This document shows positions 5,705 through 32,920 of a DNA stretch of 64,000 bases, one piece after another. The translations under genes and the position numbers were made by a program. Below the pieces are notes generated by a model that saw only the letters and a program-made list of their open reading frames with translations, did no database searches and was not told where the DNA came from. Source of the DNA: Bradyrhizobium oligotrophicum S58. Lineage in GTDB: Bacteria > Pseudomonadota > Alphaproteobacteria > Rhizobiales > Xanthobacteraceae. How positions within the stretch are numbered: the first letter of the stretch is position 1; each line of letters begins with the position of its first letter. The stretch is taken from positions 3,195,001 to 3,259,000 of the forward strand of contig NC_020453.1 of NCBI RefSeq assembly GCF_000344805.1, read 5' to 3'.

Positions 5705-6156
5705 GGGAATATGGGTTGTTCGAAACTCGGTTAATATGGCGGCTCGGCCGTCATTATATAAATCAACATTTAATTTAAACAAATAAAATCGCCGGGGAAA
5801 TGCGCTGCCGCGGCAGAATGGTCTCGCGATACCGTGCTGCGGTAGCAGGTGGCGGAATGCGACGGCCCCGAGCCGAAAAACGCCGAAAGGCTGCGTGATT
5901 TCAGAGGGCCGCGAACGGCATGCTCAGTCGGGCGATGCGGTCGGTCATACCAGGCGTGTGGCAGATTAATGTCGGTGAAACTGATATTTCAATGGCCGTC
6001 CCTGAAAATGCTGTTTAAAGTAGAAAATAATCGGGCTATTAAATTTGCGTGCGAGCCAAACGTTCGCCTGGCATTGGTTTTCCGCGACCGAGTCCGGCGA
6101 GCTTGGAAGATAATGATGCCCATTTCCAAGATTATGAATCCGAAGGACGTCGAGCC
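5705..6156. promoter_or_regulatory. divergent promoter region with AT-rich motifs
   Basis: About 450 bases between two divergently transcribed polysaccharide genes. ATTTAAT is at 5768-5774 and ATTAAAT at 6038-6044, each on the side of one of the genes. GAAGGA about ten bases before 6157 is the ribosome binding site of the nucleotidyltransferase gene. No protein gene is supported here. Confidence 0.5.
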
Positions 6157-7604: not shown

Positions 7605-7811
7605 TCGGCGCGGTCGGTCGCCGTTCGCGGCATCATAGGCGCATCAGTTTCTGAGAAGCGGCGGGCAGACATCACGGCCATCCTGCCGCGATGTCTCGGC
7701 GTGCGGACAAGCACCTCGGCTACAGCGTTGGTGCGAACCTGAGCGTCGTTATCCGACGCAGCCAGGCGAGCCAGCGGCTACGTCTTGACGCGTGGGCCGG
7801 CGCGATCGCGC

Positions 7812-8912
7812 TCAGCCGGCCGCACGCCTGGGAAGTTCGACGGCTTCGTGCGATGGCGGCGTCCCGATCGCCGTGGCCGGCACCTTCTCGAGCCAGACTT
7901 CGCGCCACCAGGCGAAGATGCCGCGCGGGCAGAACAGGCGGTTCTCGCTGTAGCGTGATTGGCAGTAGACGCCGTCGAGGATGACGGCGGGCGTCTTCAT
8001 CCGCCTGATGTAGCCGGTCCGCTCGTCGATGAATTTCTCGACGCGGGTGCGCACCCGGAACACTTTTCCACAATAGGGCACCATCTCGGCGTCGAAGCCC
8101 ATGCCGCGATTGTTGGTCTGCTTGTCGATGGTGGCGAGGATGTCCTTGTGCGGGCGCACGCGGACGAGGTCGCCCGGCTGCAGCCCGAGATGCGCGATCG
8201 GCGCGTCCTTGTCGGTTGCGAGGTCTCCACGCCGCCGCGGGAACGGCACGCCGCCCCACAGCGACTGGAAGCGGTCGTAGATCCATCGCGCCGGACGTCC
8301 GAGCCTCGGCCGGCGCGCCATCGTGGCGCCGACATAGGCGAAGTAGAGCAGGCCGCGGAACATCTTGCCCGCAGACACATTGCCGGACGCGATGTCCTCG
8401 GCATATTGCCGTGCGTCCCACCATTTGAGCGGCTGGGTGTAGCTCGGCAACTCGGTGGCCTGACAGGCATAGCGAGGACCTTTTCCCGGCGCCTGGTCGG
8501 ACGACTTGGTCGCGTCCCACACGTCGCGCGCCGTGCATCCGCCGGACGGCTGGCGGGCTGCCGCATGGTCGCGGCCGGCCGCCGCGGCCTGGGCCGGGTC
8601 GACCGGGGACAGCCACGCCTCTTTCCAGAAGATCAGGCAGGCCGCCTGACAGCCGCCATAGGCCTCACCGTCGCAGCGAAGCTCGAGATGGACCGCGTTG
8701 GGCAGCCGCCGGCCGAGCCATTCGCCGGTGTTGTAGCCGGTCACCGTATCGCAGGTCTTGTGGGCGCGCTTGTAGACCTGGAAGCGCTGGCCGCACCATT
8801 TGAACATCTGGGGCATGAACGGCAGCCCTTCGAGGCGCCCGTTCGCATCGAGTGTAGCAAGGATCTCCTCCTTGCTGCGAACCTCAACCCAGTCGCCGGC
8901 CGATAGCGTCAT
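7812..8912 (-). CDS. uncharacterised protein with two Cys-containing repeat domains
   Basis: A 366-residue protein of unknown function, transcribed against its neighbours. It contains an internal duplication. Domain A (about residues 6-101) begins GDWVEVRSKEEILATLD and ends IFWKEAWL; domain B (about 247-341) begins GDLVRVRPHKDILATID and ends IFAWWREVWL. Aligned cysteines are C40 with C281, C80 with C317 and C92 with C328; domain A also has C54 and C88, and the linker has C126 and C150. No signal peptide or membrane segment is evident, so it is probably cytoplasmic. The paired Cys pattern suggests metal or Fe-S binding or a redox role, but this is inference. I recall similar uncharacterised proteins from other biosynthetic loci. 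Confidence 0.75.
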   Translation of the reverse strand: MTLSAGDWVEVRSKEEILATLDANGRLEGLPFMPQMFKWCGQRFQVYKRAHKTCDTVTGYNTGEWLGRRLPNAVHLELRCDGEAYGGCQAACLIFWKEAWLSPVDPAQAAAAGRDHAAARQPSGGCTARDVWDATKSSDQAPGKGPRYACQATELPSYTQPLKWWDARQYAEDIASGNVSAGKMFRGLLYFAYVGATMARRPRLGRPARWIYDRFQSLWGGVPFPRRRGDLATDKDAPIAHLGLQPGDLVRVRPHKDILATIDKQTNNRGMGFDAEMVPYCGKVFRVRTRVEKFIDERTGYIRRMKTPAVILDGVYCQSRYSENRLFCPRGIFAWWREVWLEKVPATAIGTPPSHEAVELPRRAAG

Positions 8913-9236
8913 GCTCTGTCTCTCAAATCTTCAAGGAATGCGTCTGAATTAAAGCAGGCGAGGTTTGCGGTTCCGATTTGTCGGATTCATGGCAAGCATT
9001 TAATTTGACGGAATATGATTAATTCGCGCGGCGGCCGGCGGCTGGCCCGCAGGTTGGCCGTCGTGCCGTATTTTGGCTTGAATCAAGTGCATTTGGCTGT
9101 CTCTCGGCTCGTCGCACTCGCGCCGCCGTCGGTGCTCCGGGGTGTGGATGGACTGGACGCGAGCAAATATAATCAATTATAATGCGATGCAGGTAATTTA
9201 AATCGTGCTTTGGTTGATGCGCAAGGGGTGACGAAT
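8913..9236. promoter_or_regulatory. divergent promoter region with AT-rich motifs
   Basis: About 320 bases between the duplicated-domain gene and the SDR gene, which diverge. ATTTAAT is at 8998-9004 and AATTTAAAT at about 9195-9203, shortly before the SDR start. AAGGGGT at about 9223-9229 is the ribosome binding site that fixes the TTG start at 9237. No coding sequence is supported. Confidence 0.45.
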
Positions 9237-10274
9237 TTGAGAGTGCTCATCACTGGAAACATGGGCTATGTCGGCCCCGAGGTCGCAAAGCATCTGCGGG
9301 CGCAGCGGCCGGATGCCATCCTGCACGGCTTCGACAATGCCTACTTCGCGCACTGCCTGACCGGAGCCCCGGTCCTTCCCGAGCGCTATCTCGACGAGCA
9401 GTTCCATGGCGACGTCCGCGAGATGTCGCTGGACCTGCGCGGCTACGATGCCGTGGTCCAGCTGGCTGCGATCTCGAACGACCCGATGGGCAATCGCTTC
9501 CAGGACGTGACGCTGGACATCAACCAGAACACCACCGTGTCGCTCGCCAAGGCGGCTGCGGCGGCGGGCGTAAAGAACTTCGTGTTCGCCTCGAGCTGCA
9601 GCGTCTACGGCATCGCCGACGGACCGCCGCGCAAGGAGAGCGACCCGCTCAATCCGATCACCGCCTATGCCAAGTCGAAGATCGGATCGGAGCAGGAGCT
9701 GGCGGCGATCGACACCGGCATGACCATCACATGCCTGCGCTTTGCGACCGCCTGCGGCATGTCGGATCGGCTGAGGCTCGATCTGGTCCTCAATGATTTC
9801 GTGGCCTGTGCGCTCACGCGCCGGCAGATCAGCGTGCTCTCCGACGGCACGCCGTGGCGCCCGCTGATCGACGTGGCCGACATGGCGCGGGCGATCGATT
9901 GGGCCGTCGACCGGCCGGCTGACACAGGCGGCCGCTTCCTCACCGTCAATGCCGGTTCGGACGACCGCAACTACCAGGTCAAGGATCTCGCCAACGCCGT
10001 GGCCGCTCGAGTGCCGGGCACCGATGTGTCGATCAATATCTCCGCGCCGGTGGACAGCCGCTCCTACAAGGTCGATTTCGGCCTGTACCGGAAGCTTGCG
10101 CCCGATCACCAGCCAAGGGTGACGCTGGAGCAGTCGATCAGGAATCTGATCGATGGCCTCAAGCGAATGAATTTCAAGGATGCCGATTTTCGCTCATCCG
10201 ATCTGATCCGTCTCAAGGTCCTGCAGGACCATATGGAGACGTCCAGGATCAACGACCGGCTGCAATGGATCTGA
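9237..10274 (+). CDS. NAD-dependent epimerase/dehydratase (extended SDR), nucleotide-sugar modifying
   Basis: A 345-residue extended short-chain dehydrogenase/reductase. The NAD-binding motif GNMGYVG is at residues 7-13, and the catalytic site is SSCSVYG with YAKSK (Tyr-x-x-x-Lys). TTG at 9237 is chosen because AAGGGGT lies seven to eight bases upstream and the Rossmann fold begins at once (RVLITG); a longer frame to 9210 exists. It probably acts on a nucleotide sugar delivered by the RfbF-like enzyme, as an epimerase, dehydratase or 4-ketoreductase; the sequence alone does not say which. It heads a run of four co-directional sugar-modifying genes. Confidence 0.85.
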   Translation: MRVLITGNMGYVGPEVAKHLRAQRPDAILHGFDNAYFAHCLTGAPVLPERYLDEQFHGDVREMSLDLRGYDAVVQLAAISNDPMGNRFQDVTLDINQNTTVSLAKAAAAAGVKNFVFASSCSVYGIADGPPRKESDPLNPITAYAKSKIGSEQELAAIDTGMTITCLRFATACGMSDRLRLDLVLNDFVACALTRRQISVLSDGTPWRPLIDVADMARAIDWAVDRPADTGGRFLTVNAGSDDRNYQVKDLANAVAARVPGTDVSINISAPVDSRSYKVDFGLYRKLAPDHQPRVTLEQSIRNLIDGLKRMNFKDADFRSSDLIRLKVLQDHMETSRINDRLQWI

Positions 10275-10326
10275 TGCCGCGCGGCGCGCCGGGCAGGCCT
10301 TCGCTTCGACCGATAGTGGAGAAACC

Positions 10327-11589
10327 ATGGAACTGACCCTTCCCACGGCCGTGGGCGTCGCGCCCAAGTGCCGGCATTGCGGCGATGATCTCACGCTCAA
10401 GCTGATCGACCTCGGCGCCTCGCCGGTCGCCAACGACTACGTGGATCCGGCCAATTACATGCGGGCCGAGCCGTTCTACCCGCTGGAGACGTTCGTCTGC
10501 CGCGAGTGCCGTCTGGCACAGACGCGCGACCTCTTGGCCGCGTCCGAGATCTTCCGGGCGGACTATGCCTACTTCTCCTCGCATTCGACCTCGTGGCTCG
10601 AGCACGCGCGGAGCTATGTCGAAGTCGTGACCGAGCGCTTCAAGCTCGGTCCGGCATCGCGCCATGTCGAGATCGCATCGAACGACGGCTACCTGCTGCA
10701 ATACTCGCTTCAGAAGGGGATCAGCTGTCTCGGCGTCGAGCCTTGCGAGAGCGTCGCGCTGGCTGCGCGCGCGAAGGGCATCGAGACCCGGGTCGAATTC
10801 TTCGGCCGTGGCTCCGCGACGCTTCTTCGGGAGGAGGGATGGTCGGCCGATCTGGTTACGGCGAACAACGTGCTCGCCCATGTTCCGGACATCAATGACT
10901 TCGTCGGCGGGGTCAAGATCCTGCTGGCTCCGGAAGGGGTCGCGACCTTCGAGGTCCAGCATCTGCTGACGCTGATGCAGCGGCACCAGTTCGATACGAT
11001 CTATCACGAGCACTTTTCCTACCTGTCGCTGATCGCCGGCTTGCGCATCTTCGCCCGGGCGGGCCTGCGCGTGTTCGACGTCGAACTCCCCGAAACCCAT
11101 GGCGGTTCGATCAGGTTCTTCGTCTGCCACGAGGGCGCGTCGCATGCCGAGAGCCCGAACGTCGCCGATGTCCTGGCGCGGGAGCGGGCCTACGGCCTGC
11201 ACGAGGACGCGATCTACATGGCCTGGAACGAACAGGTCAAAGAGACGAAGCGCGCGCTTCTCGAACTCCTGACGGCGCTGAAGCGCGACAACAAGAAGAT
11301 CGTCGCCTACGGCGCGCCGGCCAAGGGTGTCACGCTGCTCAACTACTGCGGCGTCCGGACCGATTTTCTCGACTTCACGGTCGATCGCGCCCCGTCCAAG
11401 CAGGGACGCTACATGCCGGGCGTACGCATTCCGATCCTGCCGCCGGAAGCGATCTTCGAAGCCAGGCCCGACTACGTCCTGATCCTGCCCTGGAACATCA
11501 AGAACGAGATCAAGGCGCAGATCGCGGAGATCCGCAACTGGGGCGGTCGTTTCATCGTGCCCGTGCCCAAGGCGACCATCGAGGATTAG
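10327..11589 (+). CDS. SAM-dependent nucleotide-sugar C-methyltransferase
   Basis: A 420-residue methyltransferase with the three-part layout of sugar C-methyltransferases of the NovU/TylC3 type. The N-terminal zinc-binding part has CRHC and CREC pairs with the VANDY spacing typical of the family (residues 16-62). The central SAM-binding fold shows EIASNDGYLLQY. YHEHFSYLS near residue 222 carries the conserved catalytic-region Tyr/His/Glu. The C-terminal part contains VAYGAPAKGVTLLNYCG. Members methylate a carbon, often C3, of a 4-keto-deoxy nucleotide sugar. Together with the neighbouring RmlC-like epimerase this predicts a branched-chain sugar in the polymer. Confidence 0.9.
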   Translation: MELTLPTAVGVAPKCRHCGDDLTLKLIDLGASPVANDYVDPANYMRAEPFYPLETFVCRECRLAQTRDLLAASEIFRADYAYFSSHSTSWLEHARSYVEVVTERFKLGPASRHVEIASNDGYLLQYSLQKGISCLGVEPCESVALAARAKGIETRVEFFGRGSATLLREEGWSADLVTANNVLAHVPDINDFVGGVKILLAPEGVATFEVQHLLTLMQRHQFDTIYHEHFSYLSLIAGLRIFARAGLRVFDVELPETHGGSIRFFVCHEGASHAESPNVADVLARERAYGLHEDAIYMAWNEQVKETKRALLELLTALKRDNKKIVAYGAPAKGVTLLNYCGVRTDFLDFTVDRAPSKQGRYMPGVRIPILPPEAIFEARPDYVLILPWNIKNEIKAQIAEIRNWGGRFIVPVPKATIED

Positions 11590-11700
11590 CGGGCGTCATC
11601 GCTCGTCGTCGGGCGCCCTGCATACAGAGGGCGTCCCTTTGACGAGGAAATTGTCGAGATCGACGGCACCGCCGGATCATTGCGCGAAAGAGTTGTTGCC

Positions 11701-12243
11701 ATGAGGTTTGTCCAGCTGGGACGGTCGGATGCGCGGCTGATCGAGCTCACGGTCCGCGCCGACGAGCGTGGCAGCTTCACGCGGACCTGGTGTGCGAAGA
11801 CCTTCGCTGACGAGGGCATCGACTTCCAGCCGGTTCAGGGCAATAGCTCGGTGACCCGTATCAGCGGAAGCGTGCGCGGCATGCATTTTCAGCGCGCGCC
11901 GAAGCCCGACGCCAAGATCGTGCGCTGCTCCGCCGGACTCATCCATGACGTCATCGTCGATATCAGGCCGAATTCGCCGACGCGGGGCGAGATCTATGCC
12001 TGTGAGCTCGGGCCGACCACAGCGCGGATGCTCTACATTCCCGCAGGCTTTGCCCACGGCTTCCAGGCGCTCACCGACGACGTGACGGTCGAGTACCTGA
12101 TGGGCATCGAATATGTCGAGGATCTGTCGGATGGTTTCCGCCACGATGATCCGATGATCGGGATCAAGTGGCCGCAGCCCGTGACCGTCCTGTCGGCGAA
12201 GGATGCCGCCTGGCCATTGCTTGCAGAACGAGGTCTGTGGTGA
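11701..12243 (+). CDS. RmlC-like nucleotide-sugar 3,5-epimerase
   Basis: A 180-residue cupin of the dTDP-4-dehydrorhamnose 3,5-epimerase family. Visible family features are DERGSFTRTW, the catalytic-His motif GSVRGMHFQ, HDVIVDIR and the substrate-pocket stretch IPAGFAHGFQAL. ATG at 11701 is preferred over a TTG at 11680 because GAAAGAG lies just upstream. It is slightly shorter than most RmlC proteins. In this cassette it may epimerise the 4-keto sugar before or after C-methylation; dTDP specificity is not implied, since the only nucleotidyltransferase nearby is RfbF-like. Its stop overlaps the GTG of the next gene. Confidence 0.88.
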   Translation: MRFVQLGRSDARLIELTVRADERGSFTRTWCAKTFADEGIDFQPVQGNSSVTRISGSVRGMHFQRAPKPDAKIVRCSAGLIHDVIVDIRPNSPTRGEIYACELGPTTARMLYIPAGFAHGFQALTDDVTVEYLMGIEYVEDLSDGFRHDDPMIGIKWPQPVTVLSAKDAAWPLLAERGLW

Positions 12244-13586
12244 ACCGGCACGTGCAGATGGCGGCAACGCCAGGCCATCGTGGCGGTCTGGACCGTAGGC
12301 CCGGAATCGACCTCCACGCGATGATCCGCGACATGTTTCCGATCAATCGGAGCCTTACCGGGGCGGGCGTTCGCCAAACGCTTGCGATCATCGCGCGCCA
12401 TATCGATCTCACCGTTCACGAGGTGGCGACGGGCACCCCCGTGCTCGACTGGCACGTGCCGATGGAGTGGAATATCCGCGGCGGCACGATCAGAACGCTC
12501 GATGGGCGATGCCTGGTCGATTTCGCCCAGAATAACCTTCACATCATGGGGTACAGCAAGCCGGTTCACGGTGTTTTCAGCCGGGCCGAGCTCGCGCGCC
12601 ACGTGCACGCGCTGCCGGATCAGCCCGACCTCATTCCATACCGCACCGGCTACTACGCCGATGATTGGGGTTTCTGTCTGCCCGACCGGCTCTGGCAGAC
12701 GATGACGGACGATTCCTACCAGGTCGATATCGACAGCGATCTGTCGCCGGGCGCGATGACCTATGGCGAGTTCTTCGTTCCCGGCGAGACCCAGGACGAG
12801 GTCCTGATCACCTGCCACGTCTGCCATCCCAGTCTCGCCAACGACAATCTCTCGGGCATTGCCGTCGCGACCGCGCTGGCCGCGTTACGGGCAGGGCGAC
12901 GAGGGCGGCTCGGCTATCGCTTCCTGTTCCTGCCGGCAACCATCGGCGCCATCACCTGGCTTGCACGCAACGAGGCGCGTCTCGATCGCATCGTGCATGG
13001 GCTGGTGCTGACCTGCCTCGGAGACGACGGCCCGTTCCACTACAAGCAGAGCCGCAGGGAAGGGGCGACGATCGATCGCGCCGTCGCACATGTCCTCGCC
13101 CAGGCCGGCGCGCCGCATGCGATCATGCCGTTCAATCCCTACGGCTATGACGAGCGTCAGTTTTGTTCGCCCGGCTTCGACCTTCCGGTCGGATGCTTCA
13201 TGCGCGGCGTTCACGGCACTTTTCCGGAATATCACACCTCGGCAGATGACCTCGATTTCGTGAAGCCCGAGGCGCTCGACGGCTCCTTTGCCGTCTTGGA
13301 CACGCTGTTGGACCTGCTCGATCGCGACTGCACCTATGAGCGCATCGATGGCCGAGGCGAGCCGCAACTCGGCCGGCGCGGGCTGTACCGCGCGATCGCT
13401 GGACAGCGCGAAGCCGGCGGCGCCACCCAGATGGACCTGTTGTGGTTCCTCAACCTGGCCGACGGCCGGCACAGCCTGCTCGATATGGCCATCCGTGCCG
13501 ATGTCCCTTTCGGACGGATCGAGGCTGCCGCGCGGCTGGCCCTGGACGCCGATCTCGTCCGTCCAGTTGCCGCGCGTGAAGCGTGA
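12240..13586 (+). CDS. DUF4910/M28-like putative aminopeptidase-type hydrolase
   Basis: A 448-residue protein from GTG at 12240, which overlaps the previous stop by four bases and has GAGGT six bases upstream. The core resembles M28-type zinc hydrolases: THVCHPSLANDNLSG contains the first His/Asp metal ligands, and YHTSADDLDF near residue 330 gives another His/Asp. A C-terminal winged-helix-like tail follows (MDLLWFLNLADG). Proteins of this family are common in bacterial polysaccharide loci and are annotated as aminopeptidase-like, but I know of no proven substrate. Here it may remove or transfer an aminoacyl or acyl group on a sugar. No signal peptide is seen. Confidence 0.78.
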   Translation: MNRHVQMAATPGHRGGLDRRPGIDLHAMIRDMFPINRSLTGAGVRQTLAIIARHIDLTVHEVATGTPVLDWHVPMEWNIRGGTIRTLDGRCLVDFAQNNLHIMGYSKPVHGVFSRAELARHVHALPDQPDLIPYRTGYYADDWGFCLPDRLWQTMTDDSYQVDIDSDLSPGAMTYGEFFVPGETQDEVLITCHVCHPSLANDNLSGIAVATALAALRAGRRGRLGYRFLFLPATIGAITWLARNEARLDRIVHGLVLTCLGDDGPFHYKQSRREGATIDRAVAHVLAQAGAPHAIMPFNPYGYDERQFCSPGFDLPVGCFMRGVHGTFPEYHTSADDLDFVKPEALDGSFAVLDTLLDLLDRDCTYERIDGRGEPQLGRRGLYRAIAGQREAGGATQMDLLWFLNLADGRHSLLDMAIRADVPFGRIEAAARLALDADLVRPVAAREA

Positions 13587-13655
13587 TGCGGTCGTTCGGG
13601 CTCAGTCGTGAGACCGCGGCGACCGGCCGCGCAGAGGCGCGCCAAGGAGGTGTCG

Positions 13656-14813
13656 ATGGTCGACCAGCCTGACAAGCCGCGGGTTCTGATCTTTTCGCTG
13701 AGGAATATCTTCGGCAGGGCGCTCAACCGCGGCCCGCATTATGAGTTCGAAGACATCATCCGTGAGATCGATTCCGCCGAACTGGTCGCGCCAAAGGTCG
13801 ACCCGGCCAGCCGACGTGCGAGCTTGGCCACCCGGCTCGCTTATCACGCACCTGTCGCACTGAACCCCGGCATCCCCAAAATAGCAGCCAAGGGGCCTTA
13901 CGATCTCCTGTTCACGATCTGCGGCTTTCCGCAGGATCTGCTCATGTTCAATGCGGTGGAGCATCTGCGGGATGTCTGCAAGACTTCGGTCTGCCTTCTC
14001 GACGAGCTCTGGGCCAAGGACATCCACAAGCACCGCCATTTCCTGCCGATCCTCGCCAAGTTCGACGTCGTGCTTCAGTATCACAGCTCGAGCGTCAAGC
14101 CGCTCAGCGAGCTGATCGGGCCGCGATGCCGGTACTTTCCGCCGGGCGTGGATGCGAGCCTGTTCTGCCCCTATCCTGATCCGCCCGCGCGCGTGGTCGA
14201 CGTCTACAGCATGGGGCGGCGGCCGGCCGCCGTGCATCAGAAGCTGCTCGGCATGGCCCGCGATGCCGGTCTGTTCTACGTCCACGATACGATCAGCGGG
14301 AGCCAGGCGATCGAGCCGCGGGAACATCGTGCGCAGGTCGCCAGCATCGCCAAGCGAAGCAGATACTTTCTGGTCAATCCCGGGAAGTTCGACAGCCCCG
14401 AGGAAACCGGCCATCAGGTCGAGTTCGGCTACCGCTATTTCGAAGGTGCGGCTTCCGGCGCCATCATGCTCGGCGAGCGACCGAACAACGCGGTATTTCC
14501 TGGCCTGTTCGATTGGCCGGACGCCGTGATCGAGGTGCCGCAGCAGTCCGGCGAGATCGACCGGGTGATCAGCGAACTGGATCGCGATCCCGGACGCCAG
14601 GACCGCATACGGCGCACCGGCATGGAGCAGGCGCTGATGCGGCATGACTGGGTGTATCGGTGGGAGACGGTCCTGGAGGCGGCCGGCCTGCGACCGCTGC
14701 CAGGGCTCGCCGCACGGAAGCATCGCCTCGCGACGCTGGCCGGCCTGGTTTCCGGCCATCGTCCAATCGGGCCGTCTGAATTTAATCATGAGCGGCGATT
14801 ATCGGCACGGTGA
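13656..14813 (+). CDS. glycosyltransferase with GT-B fold
   Basis: A 385-residue putative glycosyltransferase. ATG at 13656 is chosen because a strong AAGGAGGTG (13644-13652) lies directly upstream. The C-terminal half has the Glyco_trans_1_2-like pattern: RYFPPGVDASLFCP, VDVYSMGRR, then GYRYFEGAASGAIMLGE with the conserved E-G-x-x-x-G of the nucleotide-sugar pocket. The N-terminal half lacks clear motifs. It probably adds one sugar to the lipid-linked repeat unit at the cytoplasmic membrane face. The end of the gene contains an ATTTAAT motif (14780-14786). Confidence 0.78.
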   Translation: MVDQPDKPRVLIFSLRNIFGRALNRGPHYEFEDIIREIDSAELVAPKVDPASRRASLATRLAYHAPVALNPGIPKIAAKGPYDLLFTICGFPQDLLMFNAVEHLRDVCKTSVCLLDELWAKDIHKHRHFLPILAKFDVVLQYHSSSVKPLSELIGPRCRYFPPGVDASLFCPYPDPPARVVDVYSMGRRPAAVHQKLLGMARDAGLFYVHDTISGSQAIEPREHRAQVASIAKRSRYFLVNPGKFDSPEETGHQVEFGYRYFEGAASGAIMLGERPNNAVFPGLFDWPDAVIEVPQQSGEIDRVISELDRDPGRQDRIRRTGMEQALMRHDWVYRWETVLEAAGLRPLPGLAARKHRLATLAGLVSGHRPIGPSEFNHERRLSAR

Positions 14814-20147: not shown

Positions 20148-22088
20148 ATGTGTGGCATCGCCGGGATCATCGGCCGAACGGATGACGCCAACCGCGCAGC
20201 GCTGCAGCGGATGAACGACGCCATGCTGCACCGGGGACCGGATGCCGGAGGCACGTGGGCCTCGGAGCCGGACGAGCGTGGTTGGGGCGCGCTGCTCGCG
20301 CACCGCCGCCTGGCCATCCTCGATCTGTCGCCTGCCGGCGCGCAGCCGATGACGGACCCGGTGACCGGGCACGTCATCGTCTTCAATGGTGAGATCTACA
20401 ACTTCGCCGATCTGCGGCAACGCCTGATCGCCGGGGGGCAGCAGTTCAGCTCCACCGGCGACACCGCGGTGATGTTGCGCGCGCTCGGCCTGCACGGTCC
20501 CGAAGCCGTGGCGTGGCTGCGCGGCATGTTCGCATTCGCCTGCTGGGATCCGCGTGAGCGCCGGCTGCTGCTGGCGCGCGATCCCCTCGGCATCAAGCCG
20601 CTCTATGTTGCCCGCGCGACAAGTCCAGACGCCGGCTGGTCGCTGGCCTTCGCGTCGGAGCTGCGCGCTCTGCTGGCGTCGGGTCTCCTGGGCAAGGCGC
20701 AGCTCGATCCGCAGGGGCTCGCCAGCGGGGTGTGGAACGGCTTTGTCGTCGGCCCCGGCACGGCGGTGAGGGGGGTCGAGCTGCTGTCTCCCGGACATCT
20801 GACCGTGTTTGACGGCGTCGGAAACACGCTCCGCGACGAGGATTTCTGGTCGATCCCAGGACATACGCCCGAACCGAGCATGGATGAGGAGCAACTGGCC
20901 GACGTGCTGGAGGAGGGGCTGCGGCTGCATCTGGCCAGCGACGTGCCGCTGGCTGTCTTCCTGTCGGGCGGTATCGATTCCTCGGTCATGGCCAATCTGG
21001 CGCAGCGCGCGGCGAAGAGCCCGATCCACACCTTCACGCTGGCGTTCGAGGAGCAGGAGCTGAACGAGGGGCCGATCGCGCGGCAGATTGCGACAGCCAT
21101 CGGCACAGAGCATCACGAGGTGGTGCTGACCGAGCAGCACTTCGTCGACAATCTCGACGCCGCGCTCGACAGCCTCGACCAGCCGACCTTCGATGGCCTG
21201 AACTCCTACTACATGTCGCACGCGATCCGCGGCGCCGGCTTCACGGTGGCGCTCTCGGGGACAGGGGGCGACGAGCTGTTTGGCGGCTATACGTCGTTCC
21301 GCGACCTGCCCGTCCTGCAGCGATGGTCGCAACGAACCGCATGGGTACCGGCCGGCTTGAAGGTGGCCGCGGCAGCGCTGGCCTCGCGGATGCTGTCGCC
21401 GTCCGGCAGCGCCGTCGCCTCGCAGACGCGCTGGGCCAAGCTCCCCGACATGGTCCGCCGCAGCGATGATCTAATGGCGCTCTATCAGATGGCGTATGCG
21501 CTGTTCCTTCCCGGCTTCCAGCGCGAGCTGCTGGCGCCAGACCTCGTGGCGACATTGAGCGACGGACTGCCCGCCGCGATGAAGGCGAAGCTGAACCGGG
21601 AGACCCGCGCGCGCACACCGCTTTCAGCGATCAGCGTCATGGAGCAGCGCCTGTTCCTCGGCGAGCGGCTGTTGCGTGACAACGACGTCGCGAGCATGGC
21701 GGCCTCGCTGGAGCAGCGTGTGCCGCTGGTGGATCAGGTGCTGTTCGAAAGCGTCGATCGGCTGCCGGACCAGAAACGCTATGAGCCGTTGCGCAGCAAG
21801 GCGATGCTGAGGCGAATCGGCCTGCGCGGACTGGACCCGGCCTTGTTCGATCGGCCGAAGAGCGGCTTCGTGCTGCCGCTGGATCGCTGGATTCGCCGTG
21901 GTCTGCAGGACGCGATGGATCAGACGTTGCGCGATCCGCAGGCGGTTGCGCCGGTTGGCCTCGACCCTGCAGCCGTGGAGCGGCTCTGGCGCGCCTTCCT
22001 GGACGGCGCACCGGGCCTCTATTGGTCACGCGTGTGGTCGATCTACGTGTTCGTGCGGTGGTGTCACCGCCACCGCGTGTTCCGCTGA
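20148..22088 (+). CDS. AsnB-type glutamine-hydrolysing amidotransferase
   Basis: A 646-residue asparagine-synthetase family protein. The start MCGIAGIIG supplies Cys2, the glutaminase nucleophile; RRLAILDLSPAG and FNGEIYNF complete that domain (residues 1-210). The synthetase domain has the ATP-pyrophosphatase motif FLSGGIDSSV and SGTGGDELFGGY. Family members in polysaccharide loci are often not true asparagine synthetases but amidate other carboxylates, for instance uronic acids; that is inference here. Its 3' end overlaps the convergent thioesterase gene by 63 bases. A 124-base gap separates it from the upstream epimerase. Confidence 0.9.
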   Translation: MCGIAGIIGRTDDANRAALQRMNDAMLHRGPDAGGTWASEPDERGWGALLAHRRLAILDLSPAGAQPMTDPVTGHVIVFNGEIYNFADLRQRLIAGGQQFSSTGDTAVMLRALGLHGPEAVAWLRGMFAFACWDPRERRLLLARDPLGIKPLYVARATSPDAGWSLAFASELRALLASGLLGKAQLDPQGLASGVWNGFVVGPGTAVRGVELLSPGHLTVFDGVGNTLRDEDFWSIPGHTPEPSMDEEQLADVLEEGLRLHLASDVPLAVFLSGGIDSSVMANLAQRAAKSPIHTFTLAFEEQELNEGPIARQIATAIGTEHHEVVLTEQHFVDNLDAALDSLDQPTFDGLNSYYMSHAIRGAGFTVALSGTGGDELFGGYTSFRDLPVLQRWSQRTAWVPAGLKVAAAALASRMLSPSGSAVASQTRWAKLPDMVRRSDDLMALYQMAYALFLPGFQRELLAPDLVATLSDGLPAAMKAKLNRETRARTPLSAISVMEQRLFLGERLLRDNDVASMAASLEQRVPLVDQVLFESVDRLPDQKRYEPLRSKAMLRRIGLRGLDPALFDRPKSGFVLPLDRWIRRGLQDAMDQTLRDPQAVAPVGLDPAAVERLWRAFLDGAPGLYWSRVWSIYVFVRWCHRHRVFR

Positions 22089-22958
22089 GACGAGAGGGAC
22101 GTGCGGGGTGCCCCCGTCATCATCTCGGTGCTGCTGTGACGATGACGATCGAACCCCTGGCCCCTTGCGCCAGCCGGACGTCGCCCTGACGAACCTTTCA
22201 TGCAACGCGCCGACATTCTCGGCATCGAACAAGGTGTGATGCTTGCCTGGAATGTCGGCGATGTCGATATCGGGACATCGCCGTCGCCATGCTTGATCGT
22301 GTTCTGCTGCAAATCCGGTGCGCAGCAGGATGGTGGGCGCTCCCAATGTGACGGGATTTCGATCGGCCGATCCCATCCAGGGGGCAACGATCCTGATCAG
22401 GAGACGCATGCTGAGCTCCTGCTCGAAGATCGGATCGAGCGCGAACAGCAGCGGCAATCCTGGGGAGCAGCGTCGAGCGATCCAGGGCAGCCGATCGCCT
22501 GGCGCCCTCGCCAGACTGCGCCACAACCTCGAACGCATGAAACGCGCGAGATCGCCCAGGCGGAAGCCACGCAGTTGTTCCAACGCCAGCTCCAGAGCGC
22601 GCCGCTTCCATCCTGGCGAGGGGCGCGACGATTCGATCATCGTTGAATCGATGGCGCACAGACCGGCGATGTCACGGCCCTGCGCCTGAAGCCGAAGGCC
22701 GACCGCGTAGCCAAGGTGCCCGCCGATCGAGACGCCGACGATTCTGATCGGTCCGGCCGGTATCGTTGCTGCGATCTTGACCGCGATGTCGTCGATCAGC
22801 GCGTCCGCCGAGTAGCCTTCCGTGATGTAGCGTCGCCATCCCGGATAGTCGATCACCATGATGTCGATGAGATCATCGGGACCGTTCCGAAATACGTTTA
22901 GGTCGGGTGCGTCACCACCCGCTGCGGGCAGGAATGCTATCGCGGCACGCGGACTCAT
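22026..22958 (-). CDS. thioesterase-like alpha/beta hydrolase
   Basis: A 310-residue alpha/beta hydrolase of the thioesterase type. The nucleophile elbow is GVSIGGHLG near residue 97; AGLCAIDST follows, and GKHHTLFD near residue 240 gives the catalytic His. Its start overlaps the stop of the flavoprotein gene (ATGA), so it is the last gene of a four-gene operon read from 26.7 kb down. The last 50 or so residues lie past the domain, and the last 63 bases overlap the convergent asnB-like gene; the true C-terminus is thus less certain. It may release or proofread an acyl or aminoacyl intermediate. Confidence 0.75.
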   Translation of the reverse strand: MSPRAAIAFLPAAGGDAPDLNVFRNGPDDLIDIMVIDYPGWRRYITEGYSADALIDDIAVKIAATIPAGPIRIVGVSIGGHLGYAVGLRLQAQGRDIAGLCAIDSTMIESSRPSPGWKRRALELALEQLRGFRLGDLARFMRSRLWRSLARAPGDRLPWIARRCSPGLPLLFALDPIFEQELSMRLLIRIVAPWMGSADRNPVTLGAPTILLRTGFAAEHDQAWRRRCPDIDIADIPGKHHTLFDAENVGALHERFVRATSGWRKGPGVRSSSSQQHRDDDGGTPHVPLVSAEHAVAVTPPHEHVDRPHA

Positions 22959-24160
22959 GCGGCCAGCGATGCTTTCGGTGCGATGCGACCGGACAGGACA
23001 TGCGCGCTATAGTCTGCGCCCACCACGAATCGGAACAGCGGTCCGAAACTCATTGCCGATGCCGGACCGATGAAATGAAGTCCCGGCACCGACGATTCGA
23101 ACGAGGCGTCGAGCCTCGGATAGCGCTTCAGGCGCGTGATTGAGGCGCGCATTTCGTCTTCGATGAAAGAGAGGCGGTCGACGTCGATATCATAGCCGGT
23201 GCCGGCCACGACGTGGTCGACCACGAGCCGTCGTTCGAGGTTGTTCTTTGACGTATCGCGCAATGTCAGCGCCACGCGCCCGTCGGCTTCAAGCGCCTGG
23301 ACGACATTGATGCTGCAATGAATCGGAAACTTGTCTTCGACGCGGCTGCGAAGCCACCATGCGCCCTCTGGCGGGAGATGGTTGCGCGTAAAGCGTGTGC
23401 GCCACGTGTCGGGCAAGCTGTGCATGGCTCCCGGAAAATGCGTCAAGGTCCAGGCCTTGGGGCCGGTCCCCAGACCTGCAATGGGCGAGCGCATTCGTCG
23501 CCACAGGCTGCGCTCGCGCGACACGCGGGTCTGCCAGAAAATTTCGTCTTCGCGCACCAGGAGCTGCGGCCGCGCGCCCGCCTCGAAGAGCAGCGCAGCG
23601 GCCTCGAGCGCGGATTGTCCGGCGCCGACGACGGCGATGTCGCGCCCCTTGAAGGCGGCGAAGCTGCTGACATCGGAGGTATGGACGACCAGCGGAGTGG
23701 GTAACGTCGCGAGGAGATCAGGGACGTATGCAAATCCCGACAGCCCCGTCGCGATCACGACGCGCTCAGCCTCGCAGCGGCTGCCGTCAGCGAGGCTGAG
23801 ACCAAAGCCGCCGGCCTGGCGATCGAGGCGCGCGACGTCGATGTCCTCGACCCAGGGCACGACGTTCTGCTGAAACCACTGGCCGTACGCCGCGAAGTTC
23901 TGCATCGAGCACGGCTCGAACGTCTCGAGCCCGCGCGGCCCGTTGTAGTCGGCAAAGCTGTAGCCGGGCATCGGCGCCGAGATGTTCGTCCCGAAGCAGT
24001 ACGATTTCAGGTATCGGTCGCCGCCGGTCTCGGCGATGCGCGACCAGAACTGCATCGGACGTCCAAAAATGCGGTGGTCGATGGCCTGCCCGGCGAGGTG
24101 TGCGGCGAGCGAAAGACCGTAGGGTCCCGCTCCGATGATTGCGACTGAGACCTTCTTCAC
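22955..24160 (-). CDS. FAD-dependent oxidoreductase, monooxygenase-like
   Basis: A 401-residue flavoprotein from GTG at 24160. Residues 5-14 (VAIIGAGPYG) bind FAD and VVGAGQSALEAA near residue 180 is a second Rossmann motif, probably for NAD(P)H; ATGLSG and AGTGYDID are further conserved turns. The layout fits CzcO-like and ornithine/lysine N-hydroxylase-like flavin monooxygenases. It lies 12 bases after the ATP-grasp gene and overlaps the thioesterase gene. The substrate is unknown; an N- or C-hydroxylated building block is possible. Confidence 0.82.
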   Translation of the reverse strand: MKKVSVAIIGAGPYGLSLAAHLAGQAIDHRIFGRPMQFWSRIAETGGDRYLKSYCFGTNISAPMPGYSFADYNGPRGLETFEPCSMQNFAAYGQWFQQNVVPWVEDIDVARLDRQAGGFGLSLADGSRCEAERVVIATGLSGFAYVPDLLATLPTPLVVHTSDVSSFAAFKGRDIAVVGAGQSALEAAALLFEAGARPQLLVREDEIFWQTRVSRERSLWRRMRSPIAGLGTGPKAWTLTHFPGAMHSLPDTWRTRFTRNHLPPEGAWWLRSRVEDKFPIHCSINVVQALEADGRVALTLRDTSKNNLERRLVVDHVVAGTGYDIDVDRLSFIEDEMRASITRLKRYPRLDASFESSVPGLHFIGPASAMSFGPLFRFVVGADYSAHVLSGRIAPKASLAA

Positions 24161-24172
24161 GAGCGCTGCCTC

Positions 24173-25477
24173 TCACATACTCTCGTTGAACACACGCCGG
24201 GTCGGCAAGGCCGCTCGCGGTTTCGCGCGCATGAAGCGCGGCAGGGATCTGAGACCGAGGTAGACTTCCGAAAACGCGTGAACGATACCCGGCAGGAGGT
24301 CGTCGCGGTCAGCGGCAAAATCGACGGCATGGCCCGCATGCTGTTTCATCCAGCCGTACCATTTGCGAAATTCCTGGTTCGATATGCGCGCGGTGAGCAC
24401 CTGAGCGACAAGGATTGCCCGCAGAGTGAAGCGATCGCGAAAGACCGCCTGCCTGTCGTCTTGCGTCTGCGCCTTTGCGACTTCCAAGCACAGCGATGCG
24501 CTGTCACCGATCGCATCCAGGCAGGCGAGAAGTGGCAGCGGCATGCCGCGGCTGATGTCCATTCCAACCTGGCTGAACATGCGCGGGTTGAAGTCGATGA
24601 TGGCCCAATGACCGTCGAACCAGACGAATTCGGCTTCGAACAGGCCGAAATAGCCGAGCTCGCGGCAGAGATGGCGAATGAGATCAGGCAGATGCTCGGG
24701 CGAGGGCTGTGACTCGAAGCAGACGCCCACGCCTACGGGCTGTGAGCGCTGAAACACCTTTCTTGCGGCTCGGGTCACGAACAGCTCGGTCGAGCGGTCG
24801 ATGAAGCCGGTGATCGACAGGACGCCCTCGCTTCTCACGCGAACGAACTGCTGCAGGAGAGGCCGCTTGGCGTCGGGCAGCAGTGGAGTGTCGGTGACCC
24901 GTTCCTGCTCGCGATCGAGGAAACTGCGATATTGCCGGATCAGCTCCTCGGGTGAACTGACCACCACGCCTTTGTCGTTGCGAACGCGATGAACGTGGGT
25001 CCGCGGTTTTATCAGGATCGGAAACGGCAGGTTCGGCGCCAGTGCGGCGAGTTCTTCCAGGCTGGTCGGGTCCCAGCTCGGCAGCACCGCCAGCCCCGCG
25101 CTGATCGCCGCATCGGAGAAGAGCTTCTTGTCGAGGATACGCCGGAGGCTCGAAAGCGGCGGATGATATAAGCGGAAATGCGGCTGCAGCATTGCTGCGT
25201 TTTCCGCGTAGATCCACGCGGTCTCGTCCGAGGTGGGGAGCAGGATATGTCCGGGATTGGACCTGCCGATCGCGAGCAGCCGCTCGAGGAATCGCGGGCT
25301 GTCGCTCTCGGGCGGCGCCGAAAAGGTGCGTTTGGCGTAGCGCGACCAGGCTGCCGCGCCGAGGCGCTCGCTCGAGACGACATTGACGTCGAAGCCCCTC
25401 GCGCCGAGGCTGCGGACGGCCGCGATGGTGCCGCCGGCGCCTGCGGTCGCCAGAATGACGGAAAGTCCCTCACTCAT
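24173..25477 (-). CDS. ATP-grasp carboxylate-amine ligase-like protein
   Basis: A 434-residue ATP-grasp enzyme. The N-terminus is a PreATP-grasp domain (LSVILATAGAGGT). LDKKLFSD at about residues 115-122, FPILIKPRTHVH with the ATP-binding Lys, and IIDFNPRMFSQVG with the metal-binding Asp/Asn residues match the fold. Such enzymes join a carboxylate to an amine or thiol through an acyl phosphate. It overlaps the acyltransferase stop by four bases (ATGA) and is followed by a flavoprotein and a thioesterase, which suggests that an amide-linked decoration is made by this operon. A true substrate assignment is not possible. Confidence 0.82.
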   Translation of the reverse strand: MSEGLSVILATAGAGGTIAAVRSLGARGFDVNVVSSERLGAAAWSRYAKRTFSAPPESDSPRFLERLLAIGRSNPGHILLPTSDETAWIYAENAAMLQPHFRLYHPPLSSLRRILDKKLFSDAAISAGLAVLPSWDPTSLEELAALAPNLPFPILIKPRTHVHRVRNDKGVVVSSPEELIRQYRSFLDREQERVTDTPLLPDAKRPLLQQFVRVRSEGVLSITGFIDRSTELFVTRAARKVFQRSQPVGVGVCFESQPSPEHLPDLIRHLCRELGYFGLFEAEFVWFDGHWAIIDFNPRMFSQVGMDISRGMPLPLLACLDAIGDSASLCLEVAKAQTQDDRQAVFRDRFTLRAILVAQVLTARISNQEFRKWYGWMKQHAGHAVDFAADRDDLLPGIVHAFSEVYLGLRSLPRFMRAKPRAALPTRRVFNESM

Positions 25478-26694
25478 GACGGCACCCCGTTGCGGCTTTG
25501 TCGTTCGGTCGACGCTGGCCTGAGCTTGTGTCGGAGTTGCCTGAAATACGGCTCGATGAAGCGTTCGAGCGCCGCGGCATAGATGATCGAGAGCAGCAAC
25601 GTCAGCGGAAAAAGCAGATAGGGTTTGGCGGCGATGGCCGGGAGGTTCTTGTCGATCGCCCTGATGATCACATTGTGGATCAGGTAGATCGCGTAGGAAT
25701 AGGTCCCGAGCGTCATCAGCCAGGAGCGATTGAGGTTTCGGAACAGGGGTGAATTAGAGAAGCGGACTGCGAAATAGAACAGCGGCATCAGGGCCAGGCC
25801 CTGGATGCTGTAACGGGCGGTCTCCCGAAACGTCGGGTCGCGGTAGAGCAGGGAGACCAGCAGCGCGGCTGCCGCGCCCAGCATCAGCGCCCATTGCGCT
25901 AATGACATCGCGCCGGACGTCGATCGCCGTCGCACAGGATTGATGACGAGCGCCAGGAGGCAGCCATAGGCAATCGAGTCGATGCGCGTATCCGAGCCGT
26001 AATAGGTGCGGTCAGGAAAGAAGCCGGGGGCGTGCACCAGATGGATGCGCCAGGCGAGAACGGCGAGACAGACGGCCCCGAGCACCGCGCCGATGGTGCG
26101 AGGGCGTAGCGCCGATCCCAGCAACAGGGTCATCAGCAGCGGATAGACGATGTAGAAATGCTCCTCGACCGCGAGCGACCACAGGATCCCGGTGCCGTCG
26201 GGGACCGTGTTGCCGGGATCGAAGAACAGGCCATAGTAGTTGGCGAAATACAGCAGTTGCGCCGCCAATCCCTTGGCAGTGATCCCGCCGTCGAGCAGGC
26301 CGGCTGAGGTAAGCCCATAGGCGATCGCCAATGTGAGCAGCAGGGGCGGCATCAGCCGGAACACGCGACGGGCGTAAAAGCGCGGGATGTCGAGGGTGCC
26401 GGTGCGCTCGTGCTCGGACAGCATGAGGGTCGAGATCAGAAAGCCGCTCAGGAAGAAGAAGATGGTGACGCCGAGGCCGCCGGGGATCAGCGTCTGCAGC
26501 CCGGAATGACCCAGGACGACGATCAGCACCGACAGCGCGCGAATGCCATCCAGCGACGGAATGACAGCGGATCCGCTGATCTGCGCGTGCGTCGGGAGAG
26601 CCGCCGCGCCGAACGTGGCGTTGTCATCGGAGATCCCGGCCGGCGAAGGTATCGAGGCGGCGCGGAATTGGCTGAACGCGAGAGTCTTGGCCAT
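25474..26694 (-). CDS. acyltransferase 3 family membrane protein (OafA/YrhL/ExoZ type)
   Basis: A 406-residue membrane acyltransferase with about ten hydrophobic segments. The family's first segment is visible as IPSLDGIRALSVLIVVLGHSG, with the conserved Arg and His, followed by FFFLSGFLIS and FYARRVFRLMP. Members move acetyl, succinyl or other acyl groups onto sugars across the membrane. It starts the leftward four-gene operon. In the context of an exopolysaccharide locus, O-acylation of the repeat unit is likely. Confidence 0.88.
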   Translation of the reverse strand: MAKTLAFSQFRAASIPSPAGISDDNATFGAAALPTHAQISGSAVIPSLDGIRALSVLIVVLGHSGLQTLIPGGLGVTIFFFLSGFLISTLMLSEHERTGTLDIPRFYARRVFRLMPPLLLTLAIAYGLTSAGLLDGGITAKGLAAQLLYFANYYGLFFDPGNTVPDGTGILWSLAVEEHFYIVYPLLMTLLLGSALRPRTIGAVLGAVCLAVLAWRIHLVHAPGFFPDRTYYGSDTRIDSIAYGCLLALVINPVRRRSTSGAMSLAQWALMLGAAAALLVSLLYRDPTFRETARYSIQGLALMPLFYFAVRFSNSPLFRNLNRSWLMTLGTYSYAIYLIHNVIIRAIDKNLPAIAAKPYLLFPLTLLLSIIYAAALERFIEPYFRQLRHKLRPASTERQSRNGVPS

Positions 26695-26775: not shown

Positions 26776-27726
26776 TCACCTTGCGTCGGCGACGGGATGG
26801 CTGGCGCTCCACAGTTGAGCCCGCTCCGCATTGATCCGCGCCGTGGCGGCGCGTTTGCCGAGCCGCAGGCAGGTTTTCTGGTAGGTGCGGAGGAAGCGCC
26901 TGAACTCGAGATCGTCATAGCGCGGCAGGCCCTTCAGCCAGCTGCGGAAGTAGCCCCACAGCATCGCCGCGCTGCCGATCAGCGCGGGATAGGCGGGCAG
27001 GTGATAGACCGCCACCGCGAGATGATAGAGCGGCGACGTCCCCATGAAGTACTGGCCGAAGCCTTTGCGCAGACGTCCGGTCCAGATCCCGTTGTGGCTC
27101 GCACCCTGCGGCCGCAGATGGACGAAGCGCAGCGCTTCGGTATCGATGCTCTCGGCGATCCAGCCGAGCATGCGGCAGCGGTGGCAGTCGATGCCGTCCC
27201 ACATCACCTGGCGCACGAAGCCACCGATCTCCTGGAAGCACGAAACACGGTAGAACTTGGTCATGCCGACCGACATCTCGTCGCCGCAGACCTCGGGCTC
27301 CAAGGCACCGGTCTGGGGATGGACGAACCACGGCTTGCCCGAGGTCGTCCCGACCCTTGGATCGGCCTCCATCCGTTCCATCAGTAGTTCGAAGTAGCGC
27401 GGGGGCAGGTCGAGGTCCATGTCGAGCTTGCAGAGATAGTCGAAATCCTCGAGCCGCACGGTGTCCATGCCGGCATAGAAGGCTTCGATCACACCAGGGC
27501 CGACCTTGCGCCCGCCGCGATCGGCGCGGCGCACGACGCGCAGATAGGGCAGCCGCTGGGCGTAGTCCTCGAGAATGGCCGGGGTCTCGTCGGTCGATCC
27601 GTCATCGACGACGATCCACAGCGCGGGCGGCACCGATTGCGCCGCCACGCTGTCGAGCGTCCGGCGGAGATATTGTGCCTCGTCCCGGCACGGCGAGATC
27701 AGCAGGTAGCGGCGCGATGGCGTCAC
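26776..27726 (-). CDS. family 2 glycosyltransferase
   Basis: A 316-residue GT-A enzyme from GTG at 27726. SPCRDEAQYLRRTLDSVAAQ and WIVVDDGSTDET at residues 10-50 are the GT2 N-terminal signature; the metal-binding DxD-like part is LCKLDMDLDLPP near residue 98. There is a short hydrophobic stretch near residues 250-265 that may tether it to the membrane. It should add a sugar to the lipid-linked repeat. It is separated from the acyltransferase gene by about 80 bases and could be the first gene of that leftward operon. Confidence 0.88.
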   Translation of the reverse strand: MTPSRRYLLISPCRDEAQYLRRTLDSVAAQSVPPALWIVVDDGSTDETPAILEDYAQRLPYLRVVRRADRGGRKVGPGVIEAFYAGMDTVRLEDFDYLCKLDMDLDLPPRYFELLMERMEADPRVGTTSGKPWFVHPQTGALEPEVCGDEMSVGMTKFYRVSCFQEIGGFVRQVMWDGIDCHRCRMLGWIAESIDTEALRFVHLRPQGASHNGIWTGRLRKGFGQYFMGTSPLYHLAVAVYHLPAYPALIGSAAMLWGYFRSWLKGLPRYDDLEFRRFLRTYQKTCLRLGKRAATARINAERAQLWSASHPVADAR

Positions 27727-31622: not shown

Positions 31623-31714
31623 GATGATTTTCGCCGGGTCAGCCGGGCGCGGCCGGGATCTCCGCAAACCCCGGCCTCCTCGTGCGGACAGGGCAGATTG
31701 AGGGAGAGCGGTCG

Positions 31715-32920
31715 ATGCTGACCACGCAGGAATTGCAGGAGGCCGGACGCTCCTATTATCGCGTGGACCGTTTCGGGACGGATCGCGACCGGCCCGACGT
31801 CGATACCGCAACGACGGACACCGCCGCCGTCGATGACCTCGACCGCGACGTCTACTGCGTCCTTGGAATACCGATCGATGCCATCGGCATGCGCGGCGTC
31901 CTGCGCCGCATCCGCGACGCCGCGCGGCGCAAGACACGTCTTCTGATCTCGACTCCCAATCTCAATTTCCTGGTCGCCAGTCAGTCGGACAGGAGCTTCA
32001 GGGACTCGCTGATCCTGAGCGACCTCTGTACCGTCGACGGCATGCCGGTGGTCTGGATCGCGCGGCTGATCGGAATTCCGATCAAGAGCCGCACCGCCGG
32101 CGCCGATATCTTCGATGCCCTGAAGGCGGACATCGGTTCTGCGAGCACCCTGAAGCTGTTTCTGTTCGGGGGACCGGAAGGTGGCGCCGAACGTGCCGCC
32201 CACAGGCTGAACAGCCAGCCGGGGGGATTGCACTGCGTCGGCTGGTCCAATCCGGGCTACTGCTCGGCCGAGGAGATGAGCCGGGACCACATCATCGAAG
32301 AGATCAACGCCAGCGGCGCGGACTTTCTGGTCGCCTCCTTGAGCAGCCAGAAGGGGCAGTCGTGGCTGCAGCGCAATCATCAGCGGCTCGAGATTCCGGT
32401 TCGCGCCCATCTGGGCGCTGCGCTCAATTTCCAGGCCGGCACGGTCAAGCGCGCGCCGCCGATCCTGCGCAGGCTGGGGCTGGAGTGGCTGTGGCGCATC
32501 AAGGAGGAGCCCTATCTCTGGCGCCGCTACTGGAACGACGGGACGGCGATGCTGCGGCTGCTGTTCACCCACGTGCTGCCATTCGTGTTCTGGACCTGGT
32601 GGATGCGGCGCACGCATGAGCGGGGGGAGGCCCTCACCATCACCCAGGACTATGGCTCGCGCACGGTCACGCTCAGTCTTTCAGGGCCGGCCGATGCACG
32701 GCACGTCGACAGGGCCATTCCGGTGTTCCGCGCCGCGACGGCTTCCCGCAAGCGCGTCACGCTCGATTTCTCCAATGTCTGCGCCATCGATGCGCGTTTT
32801 CTCGGATTGCTGCTGATGCTGAGGAAGCAATTGGAGGCCCAGGGCTGCGCCGGGACGTTCGTGGGCGTCTCGCCCCTGATGGCGCGAATATTCCGCATGG
32901 GCGGCCTGGATCTTCCATGA
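31715..32920 (+). CDS. WecG/TagA/CpsF-family glycosyltransferase fused to a C-terminal STAS domain
   Basis: A 401-residue fusion. ATG at 31715 is chosen because GAGGGAGAG is just upstream; a longer GTG frame starts at 31682. Residues about 40-280 are the GT26 domain: LISTPNLNFLVAS, DLCTVDGMPVVW, RTAGADIFDAL, FLFGGPEGGAE, GADFLVASLSSQKGQ, VRAHLGAALNF and LEWLWRIKEEP with the membrane-facing tail. A transmembrane-like stretch (FTHVLPFVFWTWW) follows. Residues about 308-401 resemble a STAS domain (RVTLDFSNVCAIDARFLGLLLML), where the usual phosphorylated Ser is replaced by Ala/Arg. The STAS part may regulate or localise the enzyme. Confidence 0.85.
   Translation: MLTTQELQEAGRSYYRVDRFGTDRDRPDVDTATTDTAAVDDLDRDVYCVLGIPIDAIGMRGVLRRIRDAARRKTRLLISTPNLNFLVASQSDRSFRDSLILSDLCTVDGMPVVWIARLIGIPIKSRTAGADIFDALKADIGSASTLKLFLFGGPEGGAERAAHRLNSQPGGLHCVGWSNPGYCSAEEMSRDHIIEEINASGADFLVASLSSQKGQSWLQRNHQRLEIPVRAHLGAALNFQAGTVKRAPPILRRLGLEWLWRIKEEPYLWRRYWNDGTAMLRLLFTHVLPFVFWTWWMRRTHERGEALTITQDYGSRTVTLSLSGPADARHVDRAIPVFRAATASRKRVTLDFSNVCAIDARFLGLLLMLRKQLEAQGCAGTFVGVSPLMARIFRMGGLDLP

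Follow-up and report, generated by a model that had tools for sequence, protein, structure and literature searches.

An exopolysaccharide (EPS) locus of Bradyrhizobium oligotrophicum S58 carries, in a variable slot between an asnB-like gene and an acyltransferase gene, a 3.4-kb cassette of three genes encoding an ATP-grasp ligase, a flavoprotein, and a hydrolase. The locus lies within the stretch analyzed here (the window), 64,000 bases spanning positions 3195001 to 3259000 of a single-contig, 8.26-Mb genome. Both asnB and (in this clade) the acyltransferase gene belong to the core of the EPS locus, since they persist in collinear loci that lack the trio. At the heart of the cassette, the flavoprotein and ATP-grasp genes form a pair that is also present in many further polysaccharide loci; we read the pair as a putative amide-forming ligase and a putative N-oxygenating flavoenzyme that work together and probably decorate the EPS here. 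The first-pass annotation of this region, which treated all five genes as a single decoration cassette, had real genes in hand and guessed the theme, but it lumped the core locus with the inserted cassette.

A variable slot in a core EPS locus

The cassette genes lie on the minus strand in the order ATP-grasp ligase (434 amino acids; 24173 to 25477), flavin adenine dinucleotide (FAD)/NAD(P)H flavoprotein with a possibly N-hydroxylase-like fold (401 amino acids; 22955 to 24160), and alpha/beta-hydrolase of thioesterase family PF00975 (22026 to 22958). Upstream on the same strand are the acyltransferase 3 gene (PF01757; 25474 to 26694) and, 81 bases beyond it, a GT2 glycosyltransferase gene (26776 to 27726), both part of the core EPS locus. 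The asnB-like gene, encoding a class II glutamine amidotransferase of 646 amino acids (20148 to 22088), is on the opposite, plus strand behind Gfo and SDR genes and outside the cassette. Four-base overlaps join the hydrolase and flavoprotein genes (22955 to 22958) and the ATP-grasp and acyltransferase genes (25474 to 25477), a 12-base gap (24161 to 24172) separates the flavoprotein and ATP-grasp genes, and the hydrolase and asnB genes overlap at their tails by 63 bases (22026 to 22088). The first-pass annotation had all five open reading frames (ORFs), their coordinates, and these junctions exactly right when the ORFs were checked.

The boundaries of the cassette emerged from a search with AsnB over 195 genomes of the genus, 13 of which, including the window's own, had a match at an E value of up to 1e-180. 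Three of the matching loci (L133, L134, and L135) are collinear with the window at 69 to 97% identity, protein matches below 35% identity being left out, and share with it the gene order C-methyltransferase, rmlC, DUF4910, glycosyltransferase, Wzx, GT4, Gfo, SDR, AsnB, acyltransferase, GT2, lyase, Wzy, and WecG. The flavoprotein, ATP-grasp protein, and hydrolase had no match in these three loci. Nucleotide alignment to the window breaks off with the asnB stop codon at 22088 (22107 for L134) and picks up again at 25513 (25534 for L135), among the final codons of the acyltransferase gene, leaving 22089 to 25512 as the stretch absent from the collinear loci. The slot contains about 100 bases in L135, making it nearly empty, and in L133 an SDR gene that recurs in L134 at 89% identity. 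Neither the flavoprotein nor the ATP-grasp protein was found in the fetched stretch of the other seven AsnB loci (L136 to L142), such that AsnB occurs without the trio in 10 of the 12 other genomes having AsnB at this threshold. Among the loci fetched, the cassette and this EPS locus occur together in the window, L079 (genome G337), and L080 (genome G369); a related locus in a Bradyrhizobium metagenome-assembled genome (MAG; L037) carries the trio, AsnB, and an SDR gene sharing 78% identity with the one in L133.

A recurrent flavoprotein/ATP-grasp pair

Searches with the flavoprotein at the level of the genus, the class, and the phylum, the last with a flavoprotein alignment, yielded 33 loci besides the window, each fetched as a stretch of 10 to 20 kb. 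The phylum search gave matches in at least 3 of 349 genomes at an E value of up to 1e-60; at most nine (genus), four (class), or five (phylum) candidates were scored per genome, and a missing match in these searches means little. With an ATP-grasp profile, an ATP-grasp domain was detected within about 2.1 kb of the flavoprotein in 28 of the 33 loci, a count that includes L109 despite its merely fragmentary ATP-grasp matches, and within 400 bases in 24. No ATP-grasp domain lay within about 2.1 kb in L103, L106, L110, or L094 and L105, where it was 7.4 kb away. Twelve of the loci had themselves contributed an ATP-grasp sequence to the profile (L084 via L045, the same record), and the pair was present in 16 of the 21 that had not. 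Since the profile matches only four places in the entire 8.26-Mb genome at an E value of up to 1e-10, including the window's own gene, chance proximity would by our arithmetic be expected at about 0.3% per locus. Several loci nearly duplicate each other (e.g., L094, L105, L106, and L110) and are not independent events.

Pairwise distances among flavoproteins correlated with those among ATP-grasp proteins (r = 0.89 over 35 loci, with L045/L084, L039, L109, and the three loci without an ATP-grasp match, L103, L106, and L110, excluded), the highest value from 2000 permutations being 0.22. Common species ancestry could account for part of this correlation, though most of these loci come from one genus. 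The ATP-grasp and flavoprotein domains constitute one ORF in L104 (2449 to 4872, plus strand). In L079, the acyltransferase and ATP-grasp sequences are fused in frame in one ORF of 832 residues (11229 to 13727, minus strand), which may reflect coupling or, given the four-base overlap of the two genes in the window, no more than the loss of the stop between them. The ligase is far more diverged than its partner, with a median identity of 20% among ATP-grasp proteins versus 39% among flavoproteins. No description of the pair was found in the literature searched, among the matches listed, and an amidoligase review (Iyer et al. 2009) may list the neighborhood.

A scan of named species genomes with the ATP-grasp alignment, made via two short peptide patterns and thus giving a lower bound rather than a census, identified at least nine loci: three in Bradyrhizobium, four in Bosea, one in a Rhizobiales MAG, and one in Granulicella aggregans, which belongs to another phylum. 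The flavoprotein gene directly follows the ATP-grasp gene in all nine, and the hydrolase gene comes next in seven of the eight whose contig reaches that far, the exception being L038 (B. iriomotense). In L045, an opposite-strand methyltransferase-like gene stands between the flavoprotein and hydrolase genes. The first-pass annotation would have been refuted had the three genes not been conserved together elsewhere; across these loci, they are conserved together.

Polysaccharide genes around the pair

To score loci for polysaccharide functions, markers of initiation, export, polymerization, and glycosyl transfer were drawn from the window and five of the 33 flavoprotein-selected loci. The polysaccharide-locus score was reached by 23 of the 33 loci versus 1 among 20 stretches placed evenly along the window's own genome, and by 18 of 28 once the five marker donors were removed. 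The makeup of these polysaccharide loci varies, with combinations including ExoY, AsnB-like genes, and a DegT aminotransferase; Poly_export and WecG; and GINT1-like with several glycosyltransferases. We also observed a further recurrent type of EPS locus (L095, L096, L098, and L099), in which one or two AsnB-like genes lie near the flavoprotein/ATP-grasp pair together with ExoY, a DegT-type aminotransferase, and glycosyltransferases.

Assignment of the gene products

The flavoprotein matched Pfam Pyr_redox_3 (65.3 bits) and, partially, Lys_Orn_oxgnase (53.5 bits), and it contains the FAD motif GxGPxG (as GAGPYG) and the NADP motif GxGxSA (as GAGQSALE). A second structural aligner, applied to a flavoprotein model of moderate quality, returned N-hydroxylases in all nine top rows at 14 to 18% identity. 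At the site of the ATG[YF] motif, which we take to be an N-hydroxylase hallmark, the window protein and three near relatives have GTGY or GSGY, and ATG[YF] is present in the other 10 of 14 aligned rows. The named N-hydroxylase model of NCBIfam was not reached (histamin_N_OH, 28.7 bits against a cutoff of 700). A disulfide reductase of the thioredoxin reductase type was rejected, as the redox-active CxxC is present in none of the 14 family members examined. Tentatively, we take the flavoprotein to be an N-oxygenating enzyme. Elsewhere in the genome, separate from this flavoprotein, a strong Lys/Orn N-hydroxylase match (PF13434, E value of 6e-118) adjoins long carrier-domain ORFs (G000:C1:6010043-6046000), perhaps a hydroxamate siderophore cluster.

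The ATP-grasp protein matched no Pfam model at 1e-3, including the TupA-like family. Its predicted structure (mean model confidence, pLDDT, 85) has the ATP-grasp fold, and K157, E281, E283, N297, and R299 are invariant in 21 aligned rows; the modeled fold, conserved Lys, and metal-binding Glu/Asn residues place it in the superfamily. AsnB matched Asn_synthase (249.2 bits) and GATase_7 (132.4 bits), exceeded the curated TIGR01536 cutoff (389.1 versus 267.1 bits), and begins MCGIAG, which supplies the N-terminal Cys; it did not reach TIGR03108, the XrtA/PEP-CTERM amidotransferase model (362.5 bits against a cutoff of 816.9). The acyltransferase matched Acyl_transf_3 (116.5 bits).

The hydrolase matched Thioesterase PF00975 (41.7 bits, cutoff 26.4), with catalytic Ser77 and His240 invariant in 17 aligned rows. 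Its 63-base overlap with asnB arises from a C-terminal extension of about 46 residues plus stop (22026 to 22166, minus strand) that, among the 17 aligned rows, is present in this strain only, the other 16 rows ending within about 15 residues of a shared end point, and the overlap is not conserved. A carrier-protein pathway at the locus, the setting of a type II thioesterase, was rejected: none of the 38 PP-binding matches in the genome falls inside the window, the nearest lying about 31 kb beyond its end.

Neighboring features of the window

Around the five genes, the EPS locus encodes sugar-nucleotide enzymes, Wzx, several glycosyltransferases, a Wzy_C-domain protein, a WecG-type transferase, and a Wzz/AAA-type (Wzc-like) protein. 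Ahead of Wzx, at 6049 to 13586, are genes reading like glucose-1-phosphate cytidylyltransferase, a PIG-L-like deacetylase, an epimerase, and a C-methyltransferase, the set ending in Pfam matches to dTDP_sugar_isom and DUF4910/DUF2172; judged from these sequences, it resembles a pathway for a branched deoxysugar. The stretch from the epimerase to DUF4910 recurs in L090 at 73 to 83% identity, beside a distant flavoprotein/ATP-grasp pair. Amid the sugar genes, a minus-strand ORF of 366 amino acids (7812 to 8912) is overlapped by an opposite-strand ORF of 315 amino acids. At 31682 to 32920, a WecG-type glycosyltransferase and a C-terminal STAS domain are combined in a single protein.

Discussion

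The reading that we tentatively favor, with slightly less than half of our confidence, is that a cassette in a variable slot of a core EPS locus performs N-oxygenation and amide or hydroxamate ligation, with the product most likely placed on the polymer. ATP-grasp ligases form an acyl phosphate, which they then join to a nucleophile. The flavoprotein, with NADPH and O2, would oxygenate an amine or amino-acid substrate at its nitrogen, and the ATP-grasp enzyme would activate a carboxylate as the acyl phosphate and couple it to this (oxidized) nitrogen, a sugar amine, or a uronic acid, yielding an amide- or hydroxamate-type group. An optional hydrolase may edit or release stalled acyl intermediates. 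In this locus, the product would most likely be placed on the polymer or a lipid-linked unit, and the cassette would be one exchangeable choice among others, altering surface chemistry. The analysis establishes the pairing, the portability, the slot, and the enrichment in EPS loci; N-oxygenation, an amide- or hydroxamate-type product, attachment to the polymer, and editing by the hydrolase are what we infer, an amide-type product being plausible. The greater divergence of the ligase agrees with an oxidation step that stays the same while the coupling partner varies.

Several observations weigh against parts of this reading, and they shape the alternatives. No EPS markers were found in the fetched stretch of seven of the nine ATP-grasp-selected loci, namely, those of four Bosea genomes, Rhizobiales MAG 62-17, Granulicella, and B. 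iriomotense; the Granulicella trio neighbors UPF0182, peptidase, and nucleoside hydrolase genes, and the B. iriomotense locus (L038) has nearby sugar-modifying genes of the GDP-mannose-dehydratase type and an aldose epimerase. The first-pass annotation asked whether the trio stays next to Wzx/Wzy genes; it does not always do so, and the wider flavoprotein/ATP-grasp family is enriched in polysaccharide loci. A rival reading, which we consider less likely than not, is that the cassette yields a free small molecule (e.g., an N-oxidized amino-acid amide) unrelated to the polymer and landed in an EPS locus because such loci offer permissive slots, a view also consistent with an EPS locus that is complete without the trio. 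It accommodates less readily the presence of most flavoprotein-selected loci among EPS genes of several makeups and the acyltransferase-ATP-grasp fusion in L079. That all five genes together build one decoration is very unlikely: they adjoin in the window, L079, and L080, and the L079 fusion would suit such a pathway, but it is largely refuted by the persistence of AsnB and the acyltransferase without the trio in L133 to L135, by the genomes with AsnB and no trio, and by the trio without either AsnB or the acyltransferase in the fetched Bosea and Granulicella loci.

A further alternative concerns the flavoprotein. Foldseek ranks thioredoxin reductase and dihydrolipoamide dehydrogenase first for it, its best Protein Data Bank sequence matches comprise a flavin monooxygenase along with thioredoxin reductases, and its NCBIfam matches fall below cutoff and are of mixed kinds. 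It might be another two-Rossmann enzyme (a YpdA-like reductase or a sulfur or carbon monooxygenase), with the pair making an ordinary amide and a redox change elsewhere. We regard this alternative, which is compatible with the other readings, as unlikely, although a serious contender; the top structural rows of the second aligner speak for an N-hydroxylase instead, and the missing CxxC counts against the thioredoxin reductase type only.

Comparison with known systems places the favored N-oxygenation and ligation reading in context. The ornithine and diamine N-hydroxylases PvdA, SidA, DesB, KtzI, and DfoA serve in siderophore biosynthesis; the window flavoprotein is 14 to 18% identical to these, and by contrast its partner is an ATP-grasp ligase and its neighbors are EPS genes. 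The L-amino acid ligase 3vot and PylC are 13 to 14% identical to the window ATP-grasp protein, and since PurK and 2pn1 score higher, the ATP-grasp substrate is not readable from structural matches. In Campylobacter, the C-terminal domain of Cj1438 is a TupA-like ATP-grasp amide ligase of the capsule that joins glucuronic acid with ethanolamine phosphate or serinol phosphate as an amide (PMC11800379). The likeness lies in an ATP-grasp enzyme within a polysaccharide locus, and we count as a likeness that the Cj1438 domain is part of a multidomain protein of its locus; the window protein, however, lacks a TupA-like match (Pfam, 1e-3), and the Campylobacter system, as far as the available portion of that report describes it, lacks a flavoprotein partner. 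In the argolaphos pathway, the candidate ATP-grasp ligase AlpC is likewise found alongside an N-hydroxylated amino acid, N5-hydroxyarginine (PMC8976061), but the proposed N-hydroxylase AlpD belongs to the YqcI/YcgG family, unlike the window flavoprotein, and the product is a phosphonate peptide with no polysaccharide. A bradyrhizose O-antigen was set aside as an explanation, though not disproved, these genes being unmapped here: PMC4743980 assigns the O-antigen to rfaL (BRADO5200) and an eleven-gene cluster, and ATP-grasp has no occurrence in the available part of that source. As described in the accessible parts of their reports, neither the argolaphos nor the Campylobacter capsule system has a flavoprotein/ATP-grasp pair of the window type.

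In sum, the flavoprotein/ATP-grasp pair is conserved and recurrent in bradyrhizobial polysaccharide loci. A broader proposal strikes us as decidedly improbable as it stands: that surface polymers receive amide- or hydroxamate-type groups, possibly able to bind metal, from an N-oxygenating flavoenzyme and a ligase of fast-changing specificity, encoded by a swappable cassette, as a previously undescribed EPS decoration. Exchangeable decoration genes help set the appearance of the bacterial surface to phages and, for plant symbionts, bradyrhizobia among them, to the host. The existence of this EPS locus in two forms, cassette-bearing and cassette-free, offers a natural contrast for polymer comparison, and if the favored reading is true, the repeated occurrence of the ligase/flavoenzyme pair among polysaccharide genes would point to a chemical group on the polymer that perhaps has so far not been looked for.

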